Source of the DNA: Frigoribacterium sp. PvP032
GTDB taxonomy: Bacteria > Actinomycetota > Actinomycetes > Actinomycetales > Microbacteriaceae
Reading direction: 5' to 3'
Assembly (NCBI RefSeq): GCF_017833035.1
Contig: NZ_JAFIBM010000001.1
Location: forward strand, 1,488,001-1,552,000
Length of the DNA stretch: 64,000 nt
The position numbers were made by a program, and so were the translations under genes. Within the stretch, counting starts at the first letter, position 1; the number at the start of each line of letters is the position of its first letter. A model generated the notes under the pieces. That model did not search any database. It saw only the letters and a program-made list of their open reading frames with translations, and was not told where the DNA came from. Of the stretch, positions 3,567 to 11,149 are shown piece after piece.

Positions 3567-4039
3567 CCGACCCGTCCCCGGCCCGCCGAGAGCCTGACGG
3601 GCCCTCGGAGGCCCCCGAGCTCGACGAGCACGACGACGACGCCCTGAGCTGGGGCGACGAGCGGGACACCAGCCACGTCGAGGGCCCCACGCCCGTCGAG
3701 CACGGCGACGCCGAGGCGGACGACCAGCTCCCCGGGGGCATGAGCAGCGCCTCCCTGGTGGGCCACGGCGTCTTCGGCGGCGTCGCGCTGCTCTCGTGCG
3801 TCGGCTGGCTCGTCTCGCGCGACCAGTTCCTGACGTCGTTCGGCGGGACGGCCGTCGACCGCGTGCAGACGGCCCTGTGGCTGCTGGGGGTCGCGCTGGC
3901 GATCGTCGCCCCCGCGGTGTGGTTCGTGACCACGATGCTCCTGGTGCCGCAGTCTCGGTCGTCGCGCCGCCTCCTCGTCTTCGCCGTCGGGGCGGTCGCC
4001 CTCGCCCCCTGGCCGCTGGTCATCGGAGGAGGCGCGTGA
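3563..4039 (+). CDS. small membrane protein with acidic N-terminus, unknown function
   Basis: 158 residues, not recognised. Residues 1–60 are hydrophilic and strongly acidic (EAPELDEHDDDALSW, EHGDAEADDQ), probably disordered and cytoplasmic. They are followed by about three hydrophobic stretches (GVFGGVALLSCVGWLV, ALWLLGVALAIVAPAVWFV, LLVFAVGAVALAPWPLVI). The ATG overlaps the mtlD stop and the stop overlaps the next gene, so it is translationally coupled on both sides. Short actinobacterial membrane proteins like this are sometimes mislabelled DNA polymerase III gamma/tau; there is no support for that here. Confidence 0.75.
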   Translation: MTDPSPARREPDGPSEAPELDEHDDDALSWGDERDTSHVEGPTPVEHGDAEADDQLPGGMSSASLVGHGVFGGVALLSCVGWLVSRDQFLTSFGGTAVDRVQTALWLLGVALAIVAPAVWFVTTMLLVPQSRSSRRLLVFAVGAVALAPWPLVIGGGA

Positions 4040-4437
4040 CCGCCCGCGAGACCGGCCCGGTCATGCAGCCGGCCGGCTCCGCCGAGGCCCCGCGCCGTCG
4101 CGGACCCCGCATCGGCGTCGTCGTGGTCGCCGCAGTGGCCGCGCTCTTCTTCGCCTACGACCTGTACGAGGCGATCACCAACCTCGTGCTCGTGCCGCAG
4201 GACGTCCGCTACCAGAACAACGAGTTCTTCGACGAGGTCGGGGTCGACGGTCTCGCGGCCTCGCCGCCCTGGGCCGCGCTCGTCGCCAACGTGCTGCTGC
4301 CGGTCGTCGCGTGGGTCGGCGCCCTGGTGGTCGCGCGCAGGCGGCCGCTCTGGCAGGTCGTGCTCGCCTTCGTCGCGGGGCTCGCCCTCGTCGGCTCGGT
4401 GTCGCTCACGATCACGGCGTACGTGCTCAGCATCTGA
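4036..4437 (+). CDS. small membrane protein, unknown function
   Basis: 133 residues from a GTG that overlaps the preceding stop; GGAGGA at 4025–4030 supports this start. Three hydrophobic segments are visible: IGVVVVAAVAALFFAYDLY, ALVANVLLPVVAWVGALVV and VVLAFVAGLALVGSVSLTI. Between the first two is a polar loop (DVRYQNNEFFDEVGVDG) that may be extracytoplasmic. It forms a coupled pair with the upstream membrane protein, so the two may work together. Function not recognised. Confidence 0.72.
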   Translation: MTARETGPVMQPAGSAEAPRRRGPRIGVVVVAAVAALFFAYDLYEAITNLVLVPQDVRYQNNEFFDEVGVDGLAASPPWAALVANVLLPVVAWVGALVVARRRPLWQVVLAFVAGLALVGSVSLTITAYVLSI

Positions 4438-4621
4438 TCTGACCTGGCCTGACGTGCTCAGCCCCGGCTCGACGCGCGCCCCGCTGCACGCCTCGACGGC
4501 GGACAGGACAGGGGCGTCATGTGCGCGTGGTGTCCCGCCCGAGTCGATAGAGTGCACAGCAGCCGCGCCCACGGCGCGTCGCGGCGTTCACCCCGACCTC
4601 TCTCGTTAGGACATCGTCTCC

Positions 4622-6211
4622 GTGGCCAAGCCCGTCGTGCTGATCGCAGAAGAACTCTCACCCGCCACCGTCGAGGCCCTCGGCCCCGACTTCGACGTCC
4701 GGTCGGTGGACGGCACCGACCGCACGGCGCTGCTGGCGGCCCTCGCGGGGGCCGACGCGGTCCTCGTGCGCTCGGCGACGCAGATGGACGCCGAGGCCAT
4801 CGCGGCGGCCCCCGGGCTCAGGGTGATCGCCCGTGCGGGCGTCGGGCTCGACAACGTCGACATCAAGGCGGCCACGACGGCCGGCGTCATGGTGGTCAAC
4901 GCGCCCACCTCGAACATCATCTCCGCGGCCGAGCTCACGGTCGGGCACATCCTGAGCCTCGCGCGGCACATCCCCGCAGCGCACTCCGCCCTGTCGCAGG
5001 GGCAGTGGAAGCGCTCGAAGTACACCGGCGTCGAGCTGTTCGAGAAGACGGTGGGCATCGTCGGCCTCGGCCGCATCGGCGCGCTCATCACGGCCCGCCT
5101 GCAGGCCTTCGGGGTGAACGTGGTCGCCTACGACCCCTACGTGACCCCGGCCCGCGCCCAGCAGCTCGGCGTCACGCTGCTCTCGCTCGACGAGCTGCTC
5201 GCCACGGCCGACTTCGTCACCATCCACATGCCGAAGACGGCCGAGACGACGGGCATGATCGGCCTCGAGCAGATGAAGGCGATGAAGCCGACCGCCTTCG
5301 TCGTCAACGTCGCCCGCGGCGGCCTGATCGACGAGGACGACCTCTACACGGCGCTCACCACCGGCGAGATCGCCGGCGCGGGCCTCGACGTCTTCGTCTC
5401 GGAGCCCCCCGTCGACCAGAAGCTCCTCGGCCTCGAGAACGTGGTCGTCACCCCGCACCTCGGCGCCTCGACGGACGAGGCACAGGAGAAGGCGGGCGTC
5501 TCGGTCGCGCGCTCGGTGCGCCTCGCCCTCGGCGGCGAGCTGGTGCCCGACGCCGTCAACGTCGCCGGCGGGGTCATCGACCCCTACGTCCGCCCCGGCA
5601 TCCCGCTGCTCGAGAAGATCGGCCAGGTCTTCGCCGCCCTCGCCGACTCGCCCCTCACCAGCGTCGACGTCGAGGTCCGAGGCGACCTCGTCGAGTACGA
5701 CGTGAGCGTCCTGAAGCTCGCCGCGCTCAAGGGCATCTTCACGAACATCGTCAGCGAGTCGGTCAGCTACGTGAACGCGCCCTTGCTCGCCGAGCAGCGC
5801 GGGATCACCGTGCGCCTGCTCACCGACCCCACGAGCGAGGAGTACCGCAACGTCCTCACCGTGCGCGGCTCGCTCGCCGACGGCGGTCAGATCTCGGTCT
5901 CGGGCACCCTGACGGGCACCAAGCAGGTCGAGAAGATCGTCGAGATCAACGGCTACGACGTCGAGGTCCCGATCGCCGCCCACCACCTCGTGATGGTCTA
6001 CGGCGACCGTCCCGGCATCGTCGCGGTCTACGGCAAGGAGTTCGGCGACGCCGGCATCAACATCGCCGGGATGCAGATCGCCCGCCGCAGCGCCGGTGGC
6101 CAGGCCCTCAGCGTGCTCACGATCGACAGCCCCGCGCCCGACGACCTGCTCGAGAAGGTGCGCACGGCGATCGACGCCGAGGTCCTCCGCGAGATCGACG
6201 TCACGCTGTAG
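4622..6211 (+). CDS. serA: D-3-phosphoglycerate dehydrogenase
   Basis: First step of serine synthesis from 3-phosphoglycerate. The 529 residues match the long actinobacterial form: split substrate domain, Rossmann domain with VGIVGLGRIGALI, catalytic segments VNVARGGLIDEDDL and VTPHLGAS, an intervening domain, then a C-terminal ACT domain (MVYGDRPGIVAVYGKEF…) that in this class senses serine. GTG start at 4622, chosen because the protein opens with the family sequence AKPVVLIAEELSP. Transcribed alone, with a strong hairpin directly downstream. Confidence 0.96.
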   Translation: MAKPVVLIAEELSPATVEALGPDFDVRSVDGTDRTALLAALAGADAVLVRSATQMDAEAIAAAPGLRVIARAGVGLDNVDIKAATTAGVMVVNAPTSNIISAAELTVGHILSLARHIPAAHSALSQGQWKRSKYTGVELFEKTVGIVGLGRIGALITARLQAFGVNVVAYDPYVTPARAQQLGVTLLSLDELLATADFVTIHMPKTAETTGMIGLEQMKAMKPTAFVVNVARGGLIDEDDLYTALTTGEIAGAGLDVFVSEPPVDQKLLGLENVVVTPHLGASTDEAQEKAGVSVARSVRLALGGELVPDAVNVAGGVIDPYVRPGIPLLEKIGQVFAALADSPLTSVDVEVRGDLVEYDVSVLKLAALKGIFTNIVSESVSYVNAPLLAEQRGITVRLLTDPTSEEYRNVLTVRGSLADGGQISVSGTLTGTKQVEKIVEINGYDVEVPIAAHHLVMVYGDRPGIVAVYGKEFGDAGINIAGMQIARRSAGGQALSVLTIDSPAPDDLLEKVRTAIDAEVLREIDVTL

Positions 6212-6242: not shown

Positions 6243-6286
6243 ACGACGCCCCGGTGTCGGTCCTCTGACCGCCACCGGGGCGTCGT
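6243..6286 (+). terminator. serA hairpin terminator (copy A of a duplicated hairpin)
   Basis: Perfect 14-base arms ACGACGCCCCGGTG (6243–6256) and CACCGGGGCGTCGT (6273–6286). The 47 bases from 6244 to 6290 recur at 7860–7906 with about five differences. The two copies bracket the lower-GC islet. Confidence 0.8.
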
Positions 6287-6487
6287 GCTGCGCCTCACTG
6301 CTGTCCCCAATCCCTTCCGGAGCATTGATCCGATCCGTGAAACGTGACACTGTGCGTATCGGACGCATCTCGAGTCAGATGAGATCGGAGATCACATGTC
6401 ACATCAGACCGCGATCACTGAAATAGCTCTTGAGGGTGCATCCGCCCTGAGTGCCCGTCGTCAGCCTCGGAGAGCAGGGGCGTCAGC

Positions 6488-7429
6488 ATGAATCGACACG
6501 TGCTCTTCACCGCAGACAGCTCGACTGCACATCGGAGTCGGATGGAGGTGCGTCCTTGGCCCTCGACTGGGCGTCTCATCCCGTTGGCGGTCCTGATGTG
6601 TCTCACCGTGCTGACCGCCAGTGTCGGTCTGGGCGCATCTGCCGTCCACGCTCATGTCGATCCACGATTCGTCGGATCGGAGATCGTCGCGGAGGCTCTC
6701 GAGAACGTCGAGGGTGACTTAGTCAAGGTGCCCCGTGTCGGCCTCCCGACGGCCCTGTCTTCGGATGCGGAAGGAACTGCAACCGATGCCGCGATGGTCG
6801 GTGTCGTCGTGCCTGACGAGGCAACGGACGGAATTACCTTGTCGGCGGGGGACTTCACGATGAACATCGGCCTTCCCAACGCCGATGAGGCGGGACCGAG
6901 CGTGCCCTCGGGGCAGGGGAGCATGGTCTATCCGTCCGCGCACTCGACTGCCAGTGCTGTCATCCCCACAGGTGACGGCGTACAGCTTCTCTCCGTCATC
7001 AATTCCGAGAAGGCCGCGGAGTCGTTCGCGTACGATCTAGGCCTGCTCCCCGGGCACCTCCTCGAGGCGACGGCAGACGGTGGAGCACGCGTGGTCGATC
7101 AGGAGGGTGTCGTCAAGGCCGAGTTCGAGCCAGCATGGGCGCAAGACGCTGCGGGCATCGATGTCCCCACGCGCTATTCCGTGGAGGGGAACACCCTGAC
7201 TCAGATCGTCGACCACAAGGGTCTGGAAGGGGTCGCGTACCCGGTCGTCGCAGACCCGCTGCCAGTCGTCGTGATCGTCATCACTGCCGCAGCGTTGATC
7301 GTCGTTGCAGCGGCTGCTCTAGGCGTGGCCGTGTGGCTCGTGGTCAGCTGGTGGAACACTTGCCGTGCGCAGAACAAGTACCCGCAGCTCTCCACCATCA
7401 ACGGGTTCACAGCACGCTGCGTCCGGTGA
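6488..7429 (+). CDS. exported protein with C-terminal hydrophobic domain, precursor-like, unknown function
   Basis: 313 residues, not a characterised family. There is an N-terminal export signal (LIPLAVLMCLTVLTASVGLG with AVHA before HVDP). A soluble middle region follows, ending in the pattern VPTRYSVEGNTLTQIVDH … AYPVVADP, which I recognise from diverse actinobacterial exported proteins. The last 56 residues are a hydrophobic helix-rich stretch, then WWNTCRAQNKYP and a tail with two cysteines. An alternative start at 6542 (MEVRPWPS) has a better-placed GGAG and leaves the signal peptide intact. GC content is clearly lower than its neighbours. Infer a secreted or membrane-anchored accessory protein, possibly a propeptide plus a C-terminal active peptide. 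Confidence 0.7.
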   Translation: MNRHVLFTADSSTAHRSRMEVRPWPSTGRLIPLAVLMCLTVLTASVGLGASAVHAHVDPRFVGSEIVAEALENVEGDLVKVPRVGLPTALSSDAEGTATDAAMVGVVVPDEATDGITLSAGDFTMNIGLPNADEAGPSVPSGQGSMVYPSAHSTASAVIPTGDGVQLLSVINSEKAAESFAYDLGLLPGHLLEATADGGARVVDQEGVVKAEFEPAWAQDAAGIDVPTRYSVEGNTLTQIVDHKGLEGVAYPVVADPLPVVVIVITAAALIVVAAAALGVAVWLVVSWWNTCRAQNKYPQLSTINGFTARCVR

Positions 7430-7454
7430 CATGAGGAAGCGCGAAGGAGGCATC

Positions 7455-7760
7455 ATGGACACGGAGAGAGGCTCGGGCTTGGCGGTGGGACTCGTCTCGG
7501 CGTGTTCCCTGGTGATGGCGATACTGGTCTTGGGCACGGTCGCCATGTTGCTCGCGGCTCAAGCCTTCACGAACGGAAACACGATCGGCATCCCCGTCCT
7601 GGTCACCTTCGACGGGTCCAGAGCCATGGTCGACGCGCCGAGCGTCCACATCAGCGGTTCCGTGGCCGGCATGGTCGGCTCCGTCCTTCTTCTCGCGCTC
7701 CCACTTCCGCTCTGGTTCATCGGGCTCACCCGGCGCGAGCAGACAGCAACGAGTGAGTAA
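7455..7760 (+). CDS. small two-helix membrane protein
   Basis: 101 residues. ATG chosen because AAGGAGG (7444–7450) lies four bases upstream; an in-frame ATG at 7431 is the alternative. Two hydrophobic segments (LAVGLVSACSLVMAILVLGTVAMLLAA and VAGMVGSVLLLALPLPLWFIGL) flank an extracytoplasmic-looking loop of about 35 residues. It starts 25 bases after the exported protein and shares its lower GC content. The pairing and size suggest an accessory or immunity-type partner, but no homology supports a specific role. Confidence 0.65.
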   Translation: MDTERGSGLAVGLVSACSLVMAILVLGTVAMLLAAQAFTNGNTIGIPVLVTFDGSRAMVDAPSVHISGSVAGMVGSVLLLALPLPLWFIGLTRREQTATSE

Positions 7761-7859
7761 AGGCAGCCGCTGCAGCGACGAGGGGCTTCAGGGGAACGGC
7801 TGGTCACCCGTGAAGAACGCTTGAGAGGCGAGTGCTCCAGAAAAAGATCAGCAACGATG

Positions 7860-7906
7860 CGACGCTCCGGTGTCGGTCCTCGGACCGGTGCCGGGGCGTC
7901 GTGCTG
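7860..7906. terminator. hairpin terminator (copy B of the duplicated hairpin)
   Basis: Near-copy of 6244–6290 (about 42 of 47 positions). The long imperfect stem runs GACGCTCCGGTGTCGGTCC against GGACCGGTGCCGGGGCGTC, with a three-base loop. It lies between the islet genes and the convergent hydrolase, so it could terminate both. Confidence 0.75.
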
Positions 7907-7934
7907 TGCGGGGGGAGCGGGGGAGCGGCTGCGC

Positions 7935-8570
7935 CTAGAGCTCGATGGACTCGTGCGCCGCGAGCTGCACGGCGTCGCCGCCGACCGACTGCGCGCTCGC
8001 CTTCATCCGGTCGAAGTGCATCGCCAGACCGGGGCCGGAGAGGGTCTGCTCGTGCGTCGGGAAGGCCAGCGCCGGCTTCACCGCCGCCACGTAGTCGATG
8101 ACCTCGGACACCTTCAGCCACGGAGCGCCCACCGGTGTCGCGAGCGTCTGGACAGGCACGTTCGGGACGGTGAACTGGTCGCCCGGGTAGAACAGCGACC
8201 CGTCGACCATGACGCCGACGTTGTCGATCACAGGGATGCTCTCGTGGATCACCGCGTGCCGCGTGCCGTGGAACGACAGGCTGAAGGGCCCGGCCTCGAC
8301 AGTGTCGCCGTCGGTGACGACGTGGACCTCGAACCCGTCGGCCGCGTCCGCGACGCCCTGCGGCCCGTACAGGACCGCGTCGGGGTTCGTCTCGCGGAGG
8401 TGGGCGAGCTGGTCGGGCGTCCAGTGGTCGGCGTGCTCGTGGGTCACGACGACGGCGTCGACGTCGTGCAGGTCGACGAGGGGAGCGGTGAACGAGCCGG
8501 GATCGATGACGAGCTTGCGCCCGTCCTTCTCGACGACGAGGCAGGCGTGTTCGAGTTTCGTGAGGCGCAT
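7935..8570 (-). CDS. MBL-fold metallo-hydrolase (UlaG/YtnP-like)
   Basis: 211 residues with the metallo-beta-lactamase signature THEHADHW (His44, His46, Asp48, His49), further metal ligands in the FHGTRHA and FYPGD segments, and a C-terminal THEQ histidine. The opening MRLTKLEHACLVVE is typical of small single-domain MBL proteins that keep the YPGDQF motif. Substrate unknown. The start is the ATG at 8570; no good Shine-Dalgarno is visible. It is convergent with the islet genes and divergent from tRNA-Glu. Confidence 0.85.
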   Translation of the reverse strand: MRLTKLEHACLVVEKDGRKLVIDPGSFTAPLVDLHDVDAVVVTHEHADHWTPDQLAHLRETNPDAVLYGPQGVADAADGFEVHVVTDGDTVEAGPFSLSFHGTRHAVIHESIPVIDNVGVMVDGSLFYPGDQFTVPNVPVQTLATPVGAPWLKVSEVIDYVAAVKPALAFPTHEQTLSGPGLAMHFDRMKASAQSVGGDAVQLAAHESIEL

Positions 8571-8725
8571 GAGGCCGACTGTACGCCCGCGGGGGTTCCC
8601 GACGACCCCTGGCCGCCCCGCCTCCCGCGCGCTCCTGCTGCCTCCTGGACTGCCCGCGACACGCGGGGCGGCCTCGATTTGTGACCGGCTCGACAGCTGT
8701 GGCATACTCGACGAGTTGCAAATAC

Positions 8726-8801
8726 GGCCCCATCGTATAGCGGCCTAGTACGTCGCCCTCTCACGGCGGTAACACGGGTTCGAATCCCGTTGGGGTCACC
8801 A
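8726..8801 (+). tRNA. tRNA-Glu (anticodon CTC)
   Basis: 76 bases with the CCA encoded (8799–8801). Acceptor stem GGCCCCA (8726–8732) pairs with TGGGGTC (8791–8797), with one G·T. The anticodon stem TCGCC/GGCGG encloses the loop CTCTCAC, giving anticodon CTC. The T-arm carries GGTTCGAATCC. A hairpin terminator follows immediately. Confidence 0.95.
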
Positions 8802-8807
8802 CCACGA

Positions 8808-8833
8808 ACCGCCCGGCACTCGCCGGGCGGTTT
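8808..8833 (+). terminator. tRNA-Glu intrinsic terminator
   Basis: The 10-base arms ACCGCCCGGC (8808–8817) and GCCGGGCGGT (8822–8831) are perfect complements with a four-base loop, followed by TT and a T-rich stretch. Six bases after the CCA end. Confidence 0.88.
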
Positions 8834-8878
8834 CGTCGTTCCGGGGCCGGTCTGAAGGCCCCTCCGGTCAGCTCCCGT

Positions 8879-8938
8879 GGCGAGTGGTCAGTTTCGGTCC
8901 TGCCGGTGTCGCGGCAAGACCGCAACTGACCACTCGCC
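8879..8938. repeat. long intergenic palindrome, 27-bp arms
   Basis: Arms 8879–8905 and 8912–8938 are inverted repeats with only two mismatches around a six-base loop; the core half-site is CGAGTGGTCAGTT. It lies between the tRNA-Glu terminator and the convergent ABC transporter operon. It could act as a bidirectional terminator for the operon or be a REP-like mobile palindrome. Confidence 0.85.
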
Positions 8939-9029
8939 GCGCAGCCCGGACGGGGACGGCCCCGGAGGCGTCGAGGTGACGTCGCCGGGGCCGTCCCGCC
9001 AGGCGGCAGGTCGAGCACCGCAGGGCGGT

Positions 9030-10013
9030 CTAGCCCTTCGTGGCGCCGGCCAGCAGGCCGCGGACGAAGAACCGCTGCAGGGCGAAGAACACGATCAGCG
9101 GCACGATGATCGAGATGAACGCCCCGGCCGTGAGCAGCTCCCACGACTGGCCGTACGAGCCCGAGAGGTCCTGCAGGGCCTTGGTGATCGGCAGCCCCTG
9201 CCCCGAGGTGAACACCGTCGCCACGAGCAGGTCGTTCCACACCCACAGGAACTGGAAGATGCCGAAGGAGGCGATGGCCGGCATCGACAGCGGCAGCACG
9301 ATGCGGAAGAAGACCTGGCCGTGACCGGCGCCGTCCATGCGGGCCGCCTCGATCACCTCCGCCGGGATCTCGGAGATGAAGTTGTGCAGCATGAAGATCG
9401 CCAGGGGGAGGGCGAAGATCGTGTGCGCGATCCACACCTTGGCGAACGAGCCGTCGAGCCCGTTCACCCCGAGGCCGGGGAGGATGTACAGGCCGCCGAC
9501 CCGGAGACCGTCGGAGAAGAGCCGGAGCAGCGGCACGAGGGCCATCTGGATCGGCACGATCTGCAGGGCGAAGACGAGCACGAACATCGTGTTGCGGCCC
9601 TTGAAGTCGATCCAGGCGAAGGCGTAGGCCGCGAGGCTGGCGATCGTGATCGGGATGAGCGCCGCGGGCAGCGTGATGACGAGCGAGTTGAAGAACGCCT
9701 TGCCGAGGGTGAGGCTGTCGCCCGAGTTGAACGCGTTGACGTAGTTGTCGAGCGTGAACCCCGGGTTGGCGAAGACGGTCCACCAGCCGGTCGTCTTGAT
9801 GTCGTTCGCGGGGCGGAACGACGAGATGAACAGGCCGGCGGTCGGCAGCGTCCAGATGGCGGCGATGATCAGCGCCGCGATGGTGGCGCCACGGCTCGTG
9901 GTGCCCTTCTTCAGCTTGCCGCTCGAGCTCTCGACGGCGGCGAGGCCGCGCTTCAGCTGGCGCTCGGTGCCCGAGCCGACGGCGACCCCGACGGGGGTGG
10001 GGGTGGCGGTCAT
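9030..10013 (-). CDS. carbohydrate ABC transporter permease (MalG type)
   Basis: 327 residues, six predicted membrane helices after a 40-residue cytoplasmic N-terminus. The EAA loop that contacts the ATPase is visible: AEVIEAARMDGAGHGQVFFRIVLPLSMP region. C-terminal FFALQRFFVRGLLAGATKG is typical of MalG-type permeases. Last gene of the operon; its ATG overlaps the stop of the upstream permease by four bases. No ATPase gene is adjacent, so a shared MsmK/UgpC-type ATPase encoded elsewhere is likely, as is common in actinobacteria. Confidence 0.93.
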   Translation of the reverse strand: MTATPTPVGVAVGSGTERQLKRGLAAVESSSGKLKKGTTSRGATIAALIIAAIWTLPTAGLFISSFRPANDIKTTGWWTVFANPGFTLDNYVNAFNSGDSLTLGKAFFNSLVITLPAALIPITIASLAAYAFAWIDFKGRNTMFVLVFALQIVPIQMALVPLLRLFSDGLRVGGLYILPGLGVNGLDGSFAKVWIAHTIFALPLAIFMLHNFISEIPAEVIEAARMDGAGHGQVFFRIVLPLSMPAIASFGIFQFLWVWNDLLVATVFTSGQGLPITKALQDLSGSYGQSWELLTAGAFISIIVPLIVFFALQRFFVRGLLAGATKG

Positions 10014-11149
10014 CGGATCTCCCTCTGCTTCTGGATCTGGCGGGCGTTGTAGATGACGATCGGCAGGACGAGCACGAACAGGATCACGGCCAGCGCCGAG
10101 CTGTAGCCGGTGCGGCTGCCGAGCTGGAACTGGCGCACCATCTCGAACGCGAGGATGGTCGTGTCGTTCCGGCCGCCGGTCATCGCCGAGACGATGTCGT
10201 AGACCTTCAGCGAGGCGATCGAGATGGTCGTGAGCACGACGATGATCGTGGTGCGGATGCCGGGGACGGTGATGTGCCGGAACGCCTGGAAACCGTTCGT
10301 CCCGTCGAGCGAGGCAGCTTCGAGCTGCTCGGCGGGGACGCCCTTGATGGCCGCGGACAGCACGGTCATCGCGAAGCCGGCCTGGGTCCAGATCAGCACG
10401 ATCACGAGCAGCAGGGTGTTCCACGGCTCGAGGCCGAGCCAGTCGACGGGCTGGCCGCCGAAGCCGACGAGGATGCCGTTCAGCAGGCCGATCTGGTCGC
10501 CCTGGCGGATGTCGTAGAAGAACTTGAAGATGATCGACGCGCCCACGAACGAGATGGCCATGGGCATGAAGACGAGCAGCTTGAGGAACTTCTCGCCGCG
10601 GCTCTTGTCGATGAACACCGCGTAGGCGAGGCCGATCGCGGTGGCGGTGATCGGGGCGAGCAGCACCCAGACCAGCGTGTTGCCGAAGGCGGTGAGCCCG
10701 TCGGGGCTGGTGAAGACCCAGATGAAGTTGTCGAGGCCGGCGAAGCCCGACCCGTCGTTCTTCATGAACGCCTGGCCTGCCGTGGTGATGGTGGGGTAGA
10801 TCAGGCCGATCAGCAGGAAGAACACGGCCGGCGTCATGAACGCGATGAGCTGGAGCGAGTAGCCGGCCCCGCGCTTCGAGCGGTAGTCGAGCAGGAACAG
10901 CCCGCCGCCGAGGACGGCCGCGATCGCCGCGACCCAGATGACCGACTGGTAGAGGCCGAAGGCGAGCAGCACCACGACGGGCACGACGACGCAGACGGCG
11001 AGGCGGAGGATCGTGTACTGCAGGCCGCGGCGGGGCGCGAACTCGACGAAGACGAGCACGACGCCGACCAGCGCCGCGAAGGCGAGCAGGATCAGGGGGA
11101 TCTGGGCCAGGGGCGGGATGCCCGCCAACCACTGGAAGAAACTGGACAT
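10010..11149 (-). CDS. carbohydrate ABC transporter permease (MalF/AglF type)
   Basis: 379 residues. The start is the ATG at 11149 (MSSFFQWLAGIPPLAQ) preceded by AAAGGGA. About 90 extra N-terminal residues with three or so hydrophobic segments precede the six-helix permease core. The EAA loop AEQLEAASLDGTNGFQAFRHITVP is present. It pairs with the downstream permease as the membrane heterodimer. Length and extra N-terminal helices resemble alpha-glucoside permeases of the Agl system. Confidence 0.92.
   Translation of the reverse strand: MSSFFQWLAGIPPLAQIPLILLAFAALVGVVLVFVEFAPRRGLQYTILRLAVCVVVPVVVLLAFGLYQSVIWVAAIAAVLGGGLFLLDYRSKRGAGYSLQLIAFMTPAVFFLLIGLIYPTITTAGQAFMKNDGSGFAGLDNFIWVFTSPDGLTAFGNTLVWVLLAPITATAIGLAYAVFIDKSRGEKFLKLLVFMPMAISFVGASIIFKFFYDIRQGDQIGLLNGILVGFGGQPVDWLGLEPWNTLLLVIVLIWTQAGFAMTVLSAAIKGVPAEQLEAASLDGTNGFQAFRHITVPGIRTTIIVVLTTISIASLKVYDIVSAMTGGRNDTTILAFEMVRQFQLGSRTGYSSALAVILFVLVLPIVIYNARQIQKQREIR

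Follow-up and report, generated by a model that had tools for sequence, protein, structure and literature searches.

A predicted closticin-type bacteriocin-immunity islet inserted behind serA in Frigoribacterium between two copies of the serA terminator

Insertion with long target duplication was reportedly described by Nobusato et al. in 2000 for restriction-modification genes of Helicobacter pylori, and closticin 574 of Clostridium tyrobutyricum is said to have been reported by Kemperman et al. in 2003. The minimal mobile elements of Neisseria carry alternative cargo between conserved gene pairs, a likeness to the islets considered here; direct repeats are, to our knowledge, no part of that concept. 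According to excerpts of two papers on insertion with long target duplication of H. pylori restriction-modification genes, the target is single in the other genome (PMC1643837, PMC3031569). Closticin 574 is given in the excerpt of a third paper as a 309-aa preprotein that releases an 82-aa peptide (PMC10888436).

We analysed a stretch of 64,000 nucleotides of Frigoribacterium sp. PvP032, hereafter the window, in which a two-gene islet lies behind serA. With insertion with long target duplication, as far as the excerpts portray it, the islet shares a unit present in one genome, a single target in the other and long, variable direct repeats: here we found an empty site, flanking repeats with a related single terminator in relatives, and, over related islets, repeat lengths varying from 37 to 422 bp. 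It differs from the Helicobacter insertions in its cargo of a bacteriocin-type precursor with immunity, in its host among the Microbacteriaceae, and in that the 3' end of a gene or tRNA, or a terminator, is what is duplicated. We read the islet, with a probability of roughly 0.6, as a horizontally acquired closticin-574-type bacteriocin-immunity pair that was captured behind a gene end with duplication of its target. Among the matches listed, we found no reports of such footprints around closticin-type islets, nor any description of recombinase-free movement by duplicated gene 3' ends, a mode of movement that we hold to be possible and doubtful. The locus is built as follows.

4622 to 6211, plus strand: serA (3-phosphoglycerate dehydrogenase), the left host gene; an open reading frame with an orthologue in congeners, named from an earlier, sequence-only reading and from its sequence.
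6244 to 6293, no strand assigned: H1, the first copy of the terminator hairpin, a direct repeat; from alignment to H2, comparison with congener G011 and RNA folding.
6294 to 7859, no strand assigned: the inserted islet of lower GC, 1566 bp; GC 0.63, absent in 15/15 congeners.
7860 to 7909, no strand assigned: H2, the second copy of the terminator hairpin, a direct repeat; from flank alignment, comparison with congeners and RNA folding.
7935 to 8582, minus strand: an MBL-fold hydrolase gene, the right host gene, convergent with serA; PF13483 at E 8.5e-20.

The serA orthologue is 93-99% identical and adjoins the MBL gene in 15/15 congeners, and an orthologue of the MBL gene is present in 16/16 genomes of the genus (own included). 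In the serA regions of these 15 other genomes the serA–MBL gap measures 80-127 bp and holds no islet, a result (0/15) that rules out a universal presence of the islet genes, P1 and P2, at this locus. Because all 15 congeners lack the islet, it is an insertion, and the terminator here stands on both sides of it. The sequence-only reading had proposed an insertion leaving direct repeats; the empty sites, the two exact matches to the hairpin described below and the presence of the cargo elsewhere, in Microbacterium maritypicum MF109, bear this out. Its observation of lower GC between the hairpins likewise stands up to measurement, GC being 0.630 at 6294-7850 against 0.713 at 4000-6200 and 0.689 at 7935-10100, and GC3 being 0.74 in P1 and 0.84 in P2 against 0.98 in serA and 0.95 in the MBL gene (gene calls in our scripts came from a simple codon model of our own, not from a published gene finder). 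Beyond the islet, downstream of tRNA-Glu (8726-8801), lies an inverted repeat of 30 bp at 8876-8941, its arms 90% complementary and separated by 6 nt; no other copy of its arm was found in the window at up to 3 mismatches.

H1 and H2 are 88% identical over 50 bp (E 1.5e-12, flank against flank; 83% over 59 bp in another alignment), and since they differ by 12%, no exact duplication is visible in the window. The recurrence of a 47-base serA terminator at 7860–7906, noticed from the letters, was recovered with five changes over those 47 bases. Both copies fold into hairpins with stems of about 20 bp each (H1, -42.8 kcal/mol, z -7.7; H2, -38.4, z -5.6). A search of the whole 3,327,708-base genome with the hairpin pattern, whose reach was exact matches and not more diverged copies, returned two matches, H1 and H2 themselves, and its reversed-sequence control 0; the hairpin is thus not a common genomic repeat, and a generic terminator is ruled out. 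Convergent genes often share strong hairpins, and H1 and H2 might accordingly be two terminators alike by chance or members of a generic terminator family. This is extremely improbable in the face of two exact matches in 3.33 Mb, a loop and outer bases common to both copies, and the E-value given above.

It had been expected that strains without the islet would have one hairpin. Most gaps do have one strong hairpin; G014 has two unlike ones, and in G012, G013 and G015 none scored above the limit of the hairpin scan although inverted repeats are visible in these gaps. G001, G011 and G012 have terminators with a clear relationship to H1 as well as H2; the other three congeners compared (G004, G007, G008) do not. 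H1 equals the single terminator copy of G011 at 46/49 aligned bases, and the alignment scores of H1 and H2 are, respectively, 83 and 74 with G011, 74 and 68 with G001, and 54 and 54 with G012. Both copies most likely descend from the terminator of a small clade, that of the relatives G001, G011 and G012. The presence in these three genomes of terminators like both copies, and the inexact, 88% likeness of the copies, also speak for homologous recombination as the only process at work, in which an incoming circle or linear fragment carrying the islet and a piece of the serA–MBL terminator of a near relative would have entered by a Campbell-type event.

The two genes of the islet are those that the sequence-only reading had described, an ORF for a 313-aa precursor-like protein and one for a 101-aa protein with two predicted membrane segments; neither P1 nor P2 has a Pfam or NCBIfam match above cut-off.

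6488 to 7429, including the stop, plus strand: P1, closticin-type precursor of 313 aa (start possibly at 6542), with a signal-like N-terminus, a leader and a C-terminal peptide.
6797 to 7273, plus strand: beta-rich leader domain of P1, in which the conserved PVVADP motif comes close to the end; from AlphaFold2 and the family alignment.
7259 to 7426, plus strand: variable C-terminus of P1, 56 aa, the predicted mature peptide, a hydrophobic helix with a two-cysteine tail; from the end of the family similarity.
7455 to 7760, plus strand: P2, 101-aa two-helix membrane protein, probable immunity protein; from the ORF, membrane prediction and an M. maritypicum homologue in the same position.

P1 is probably a precursor of the closticin 574 type and, as such, a predicted bacteriocin. 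Its tblastn match (E 9e-12) in Paenibacillus phage BN12 is a gene that bears the annotation 'putative closticin', and the closticin name of the P1 family rests on this depositor's annotation rather than on a direct comparison with closticin 574. The BN12 gene aligns with family member L118 through the leader and the motif and into the C-terminus (E 7e-26); the C-termini of L118 and L120 presumably resemble closticin 574 itself, and that of L060 we take to be nuclease-like. In the phage (L186, 3807-4828) the closticin-like gene lies beside a transposase gene, and its annotated start omits part of the leader. P1 shares with closticin 574, as the excerpt presents it, the design of an exported precursor of about 310 aa that releases a C-terminal peptide (PMC10888436). 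It differs in that its own C-terminus, 56 aa long, is not of the closticin type and stands alone in a clustering of 79 family proteins, which fall at E 1e-3 into 24 C-terminal clusters, some nuclease-like (5/85 without the motif and one with too short a C-terminus were left out). Similarity within the family mostly stops at the PVVADP motif, a conserved N-terminal part being joined to unrelated C-termini, among which hydrophobic peptides bearing cysteines close to the end are numerous, and which include a DUF2599 match (E 9.5e-12) and, below the Pfam cut-off, a weak one to the EndoU nuclease family; a Pfam/NCBIfam scan of 11 members gave one match above cut-off (DUF2599), with weak DUF2599 and EndoU matches below. 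The conserved N-terminal part, the exchangeable C-termini and a small downstream partner gene recall polymorphic toxin systems, from which these islets differ in their short precursors, in their two genes and, in the window, in having no secretion apparatus. In one member, L059 (6010-6940), the P1-type ORF ends right after the leader motif, its C-terminus seeming to be continued in a separate small ORF, so that this copy looks broken.

Searches with the P1 sequence found the family in 16/60 genomes, and a profile search, which scored up to 14 candidates per genome, found it in at least 55/249 sampled genomes of the host's bacterial family (own included in both). Carriage of P1 by phages or viruses was rejected: six short peptide patterns found no relative of P1 in viral_contigs, and the other relatives, two records of one phage and six plasmid records, are all below 60% identity. 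An AlphaFold2 model of a 295-aa P1, in which residues 86-244 mostly reach a pLDDT of about 90 or more, places a confidently predicted beta domain ahead of the motif and a helix behind it. No solved-structure relative of the leader was found by sequence at E 1, and the best Foldseek match had E 0.013; the best VIA-align row for 6797-7273, part of a glycoside hydrolase, had Z 10.9 at 3.2 A over 149 residues and stood among many similar rows, and since this Z is only somewhat above that of unrelated models, no relation is drawn.

P1 would be exported by way of its N-terminal hydrophobic stretch, which ends in an A-x-A-like site (read by eye), and its leader may be cut near the PVVADP motif. The excerpt on a closticin-like gene of B. 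altitudinis takes the mature part to start with P-D, on the strength of a primer, which fits a cut inside this motif in the P1 family, and gives no activity of the peptide against two indicators (PMC10888436). The released hydrophobic two-cysteine peptide of 56-57 aa would then attack the membranes of competing bacteria, and P2, probably the immunity protein for this peptide, would protect the producer. A membrane ORF of 40-140 aa directly follows 56/83 P1-family genes against 13/284 control genes; the next ORFs of L069 (EndoU-like) and L060 have no membrane segments. In M. maritypicum MF109 the orthologous P1-P2 pair stands behind a different gene and without a repeat; its P2 is 37% identical over 57 residues, and its P1, 51% identical as a whole, has 7 differences in 57 at the C-terminus (our own count). 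A C-terminus nearly constant within a diverged P1 fits selection on the peptide predicted to be released.

The DNA to the left of each P1-family gene was compared with that to its right in the window and 80 further loci, with a threshold of at least 50 bits. Direct repeats at this threshold flank 14/81 loci (15/85 genes, the two P1-family genes of L110 counting as one locus) against 1/163 control positions in the same loci; the 67/81 loci without a repeat include those where a contig end left <200 bases to one side, which were scored as negative. At the control positions of the window 0/105 reached 50 bits, the largest value being 49.1 bits. As the idea arose from the window and the first 20 loci, a fairer test comes from the 60 loci added afterwards, and 9/60 of these have repeats (p = 4e-5 against the 163 controls), 8 of the 9 being gene ends in our own reading. 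In 12/14 cases, again in our own reading, the repeat, of 37-422 bp, belongs to an adjacent gene or tRNA, being its 3' end or its terminator.

Coding 3' ends: L059, 330 bp; L115, 422 bp; L119, 197 bp; L130, 105 bp; L109, 93 bp; L125, 255 bp; L091, 144 bp.
Terminators: the window, L065, L073, L080.
tRNA: L110, 37 bp, the 3' end of tRNA-Met.

The names given to neighbouring genes (purU, SDR, dsbA, ligase, gatB, hrpA) are those that we take them to have. Two of the 14, L058 (repeats of a surface-protein-like gene) and L118 (the upstream region of a second, decayed islet), were excluded as gene-end duplications, and L112, with a repeat at the 3' end of tRNA-Leu, stayed uncounted at 41.9 bits. At 4508-7061 of L118 there are tandem remains behind the closticin-type pair: the P1 upstream region occurs a second time, together with an orphan immunity-like gene. 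At the end of L073 a stretch resembles a tRNA 3' end truncated by the end of the contig, but ARAGORN detected no tRNA in it, and it is not counted as one. The repeats are exact in L059, L073, L109 and L110 and 88% identical in the window; L065 offers a second empty site, in 14/14 congeners. Islets of the gene-end cases are 1.4-2.2 kb long except in L091 and L110, and islets lie in convergent gaps in 26/62 scorable cases against 38/238 control gaps (p = 4e-5; 23/85 genes without a scorable neighbour on one side were left out).

The sequence-only reading had suggested that the hairpin serves a transferable cassette as its landing site, and here the comparison goes against it, the related repeats being mostly coding or tRNA 3' ends. 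The window, L073 and L080 do have strong hairpins in their repeats, and L065 a weaker one, but 8/12 gene-end repeats lack a strong one, and those of L059, L109, L115, L119 and L130 end 3-13 bp behind the stop codon. With a strong hairpin in only 4/12, the hairpin is ruled out as a general landing site, and a cassette that recognises it is very improbable; in the window it just belongs to the end of the gene.

Under site-specific recombination, a tyrosine recombinase would move a small element in trans, as happens with elements at the 3' ends of tRNAs or genes, and the repeats would be its attL and attR. In its favour, the repeats lie at gene 3' ends, those of L110 and L112 at the 3' ends of tRNA-Met and tRNA-Leu with the truncated copy at the far end, and some are short and exact (37 bp, 76 bp); a trans-acting recombinase may be conceivable above all for the tRNA cases. 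We nonetheless regard this explanation as rather improbable. At E 0.001 no recombinase or transposase family of Pfam was found in the 84 ORFs (at least 90 aa) between the repeats of 13 loci, the 12 and L112, and the absence of a recombinase there and in the window islet sets these loci apart from tyrosine-recombinase integrative elements. Repeat sequences differ from site to site and reach lengths of 330-422 bp, and L119 has retained the native 3' end on its intact gene, whereas elements that bring in a replacement gene end do the reverse. Pfam matches among the 84 ORFs were PadR, DUF2599 and DUF7328, one ORF each; L091 holds the PadR-like regulator and an ORF of 407-452 aa, the latter without a match. 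A comparison by eye of 13 islets (the ParE locus L207 and 12 P1-family loci, L112 among them; L091 left out) showed no terminal sequences in common.

The two copies of a repeat can have different origins. The copy that adjoins the intact gene in L119 shares 98.4% identity with the sister genome G287 and the far copy 89.1%; the far copy is thus foreign, and plain duplication of the target does not account for every repeat. For L115, L157, L158 and L160 resemble the near copy more (e.g. 91.4% against 86.5%), and L159, L161 and L162 resemble the far copy equally or slightly more. The comparison is clear for L119 and partial for L115 and singles out neither copy in L130 or the window (L125 and L059, each the sole genome available for its genus, were left out), and it indicates that the far copy can come from a donor. 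Of the 16 species with the SDR gene of the L130 site, 14 others were compared: one (G319) has a related islet, and the other 13 have no P1-family gene within the 1.5 kb compared, some having other genes. By species (L130 and L230-L243) the 3' end of this SDR gene is empty, occupied by a related islet (L233) or occupied by other genes, and looks like a hot spot.

The foreign far copy of L119, and that of L115 with its lesser likeness to the nearest relative, are again what homologous recombination alone would produce. That process would however leave unexplained both the first arrival of islets behind many unrelated genes and the exact repeats of L059, L073, L109 and L110, and we consider it unlikely as the whole account. 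From the sequence comparison, we read the foreign far copies instead as a sign that the islet, once inserted, went on to spread by homologous recombination.

ParE toxin loci served as a control with other cargo. Repeats were found in 2/40 (places mostly from the upper part of the list, on long enough contigs; the stretch of L198 was shorter), one in a cluster of several ParE genes and the other a duplicated gatB 3' end around 2.6 kb. P1 loci do not differ significantly from ParE loci (p = 0.09 for 14/81 and 0.19 for 9/60); the footprint therefore stands above genomic background, without demonstrated specificity for P1 cargo. This footprint thus recurs around other cargo in L207 (3211-7610), where an intact gatB and a second copy of its 3' part (205 bp, 82%) enclose a ParE toxin-antitoxin pair together with other small genes.

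As to how the duplication forms, we infer that an illegitimate event captures small toxin-immunity DNA behind a gene end and doubles the target in doing so. Where the duplication covers a gene end it would be tolerated with one intact gene copy remaining, and because it leaves that copy intact, the 3' bias may stem from selection alone. Later, homologous recombination at the repeats would let the islet reach other strains that have this gene, or drop out of them. More tentatively, and with considerable doubt, we suggest that recombinase-free toxin-immunity cassettes of actinobacteria insert behind genes and use the duplicated 3' end as a homology arm for excision as a circle and re-entry. If this is true, closticin-type and perhaps ParE-type islets would be the visible cargo of a general route.

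Small islets that encode toxins or bacteriocins lie dispersed across bacterial genomes, and many have no visible means of movement. The duplicated gene 3' end offers a repeatable footprint by which recent insertions can be recognised and dated and their formation tested, and the finding points to a closticin-type precursor family with many C-terminal peptides and few Pfam or NCBIfam matches.
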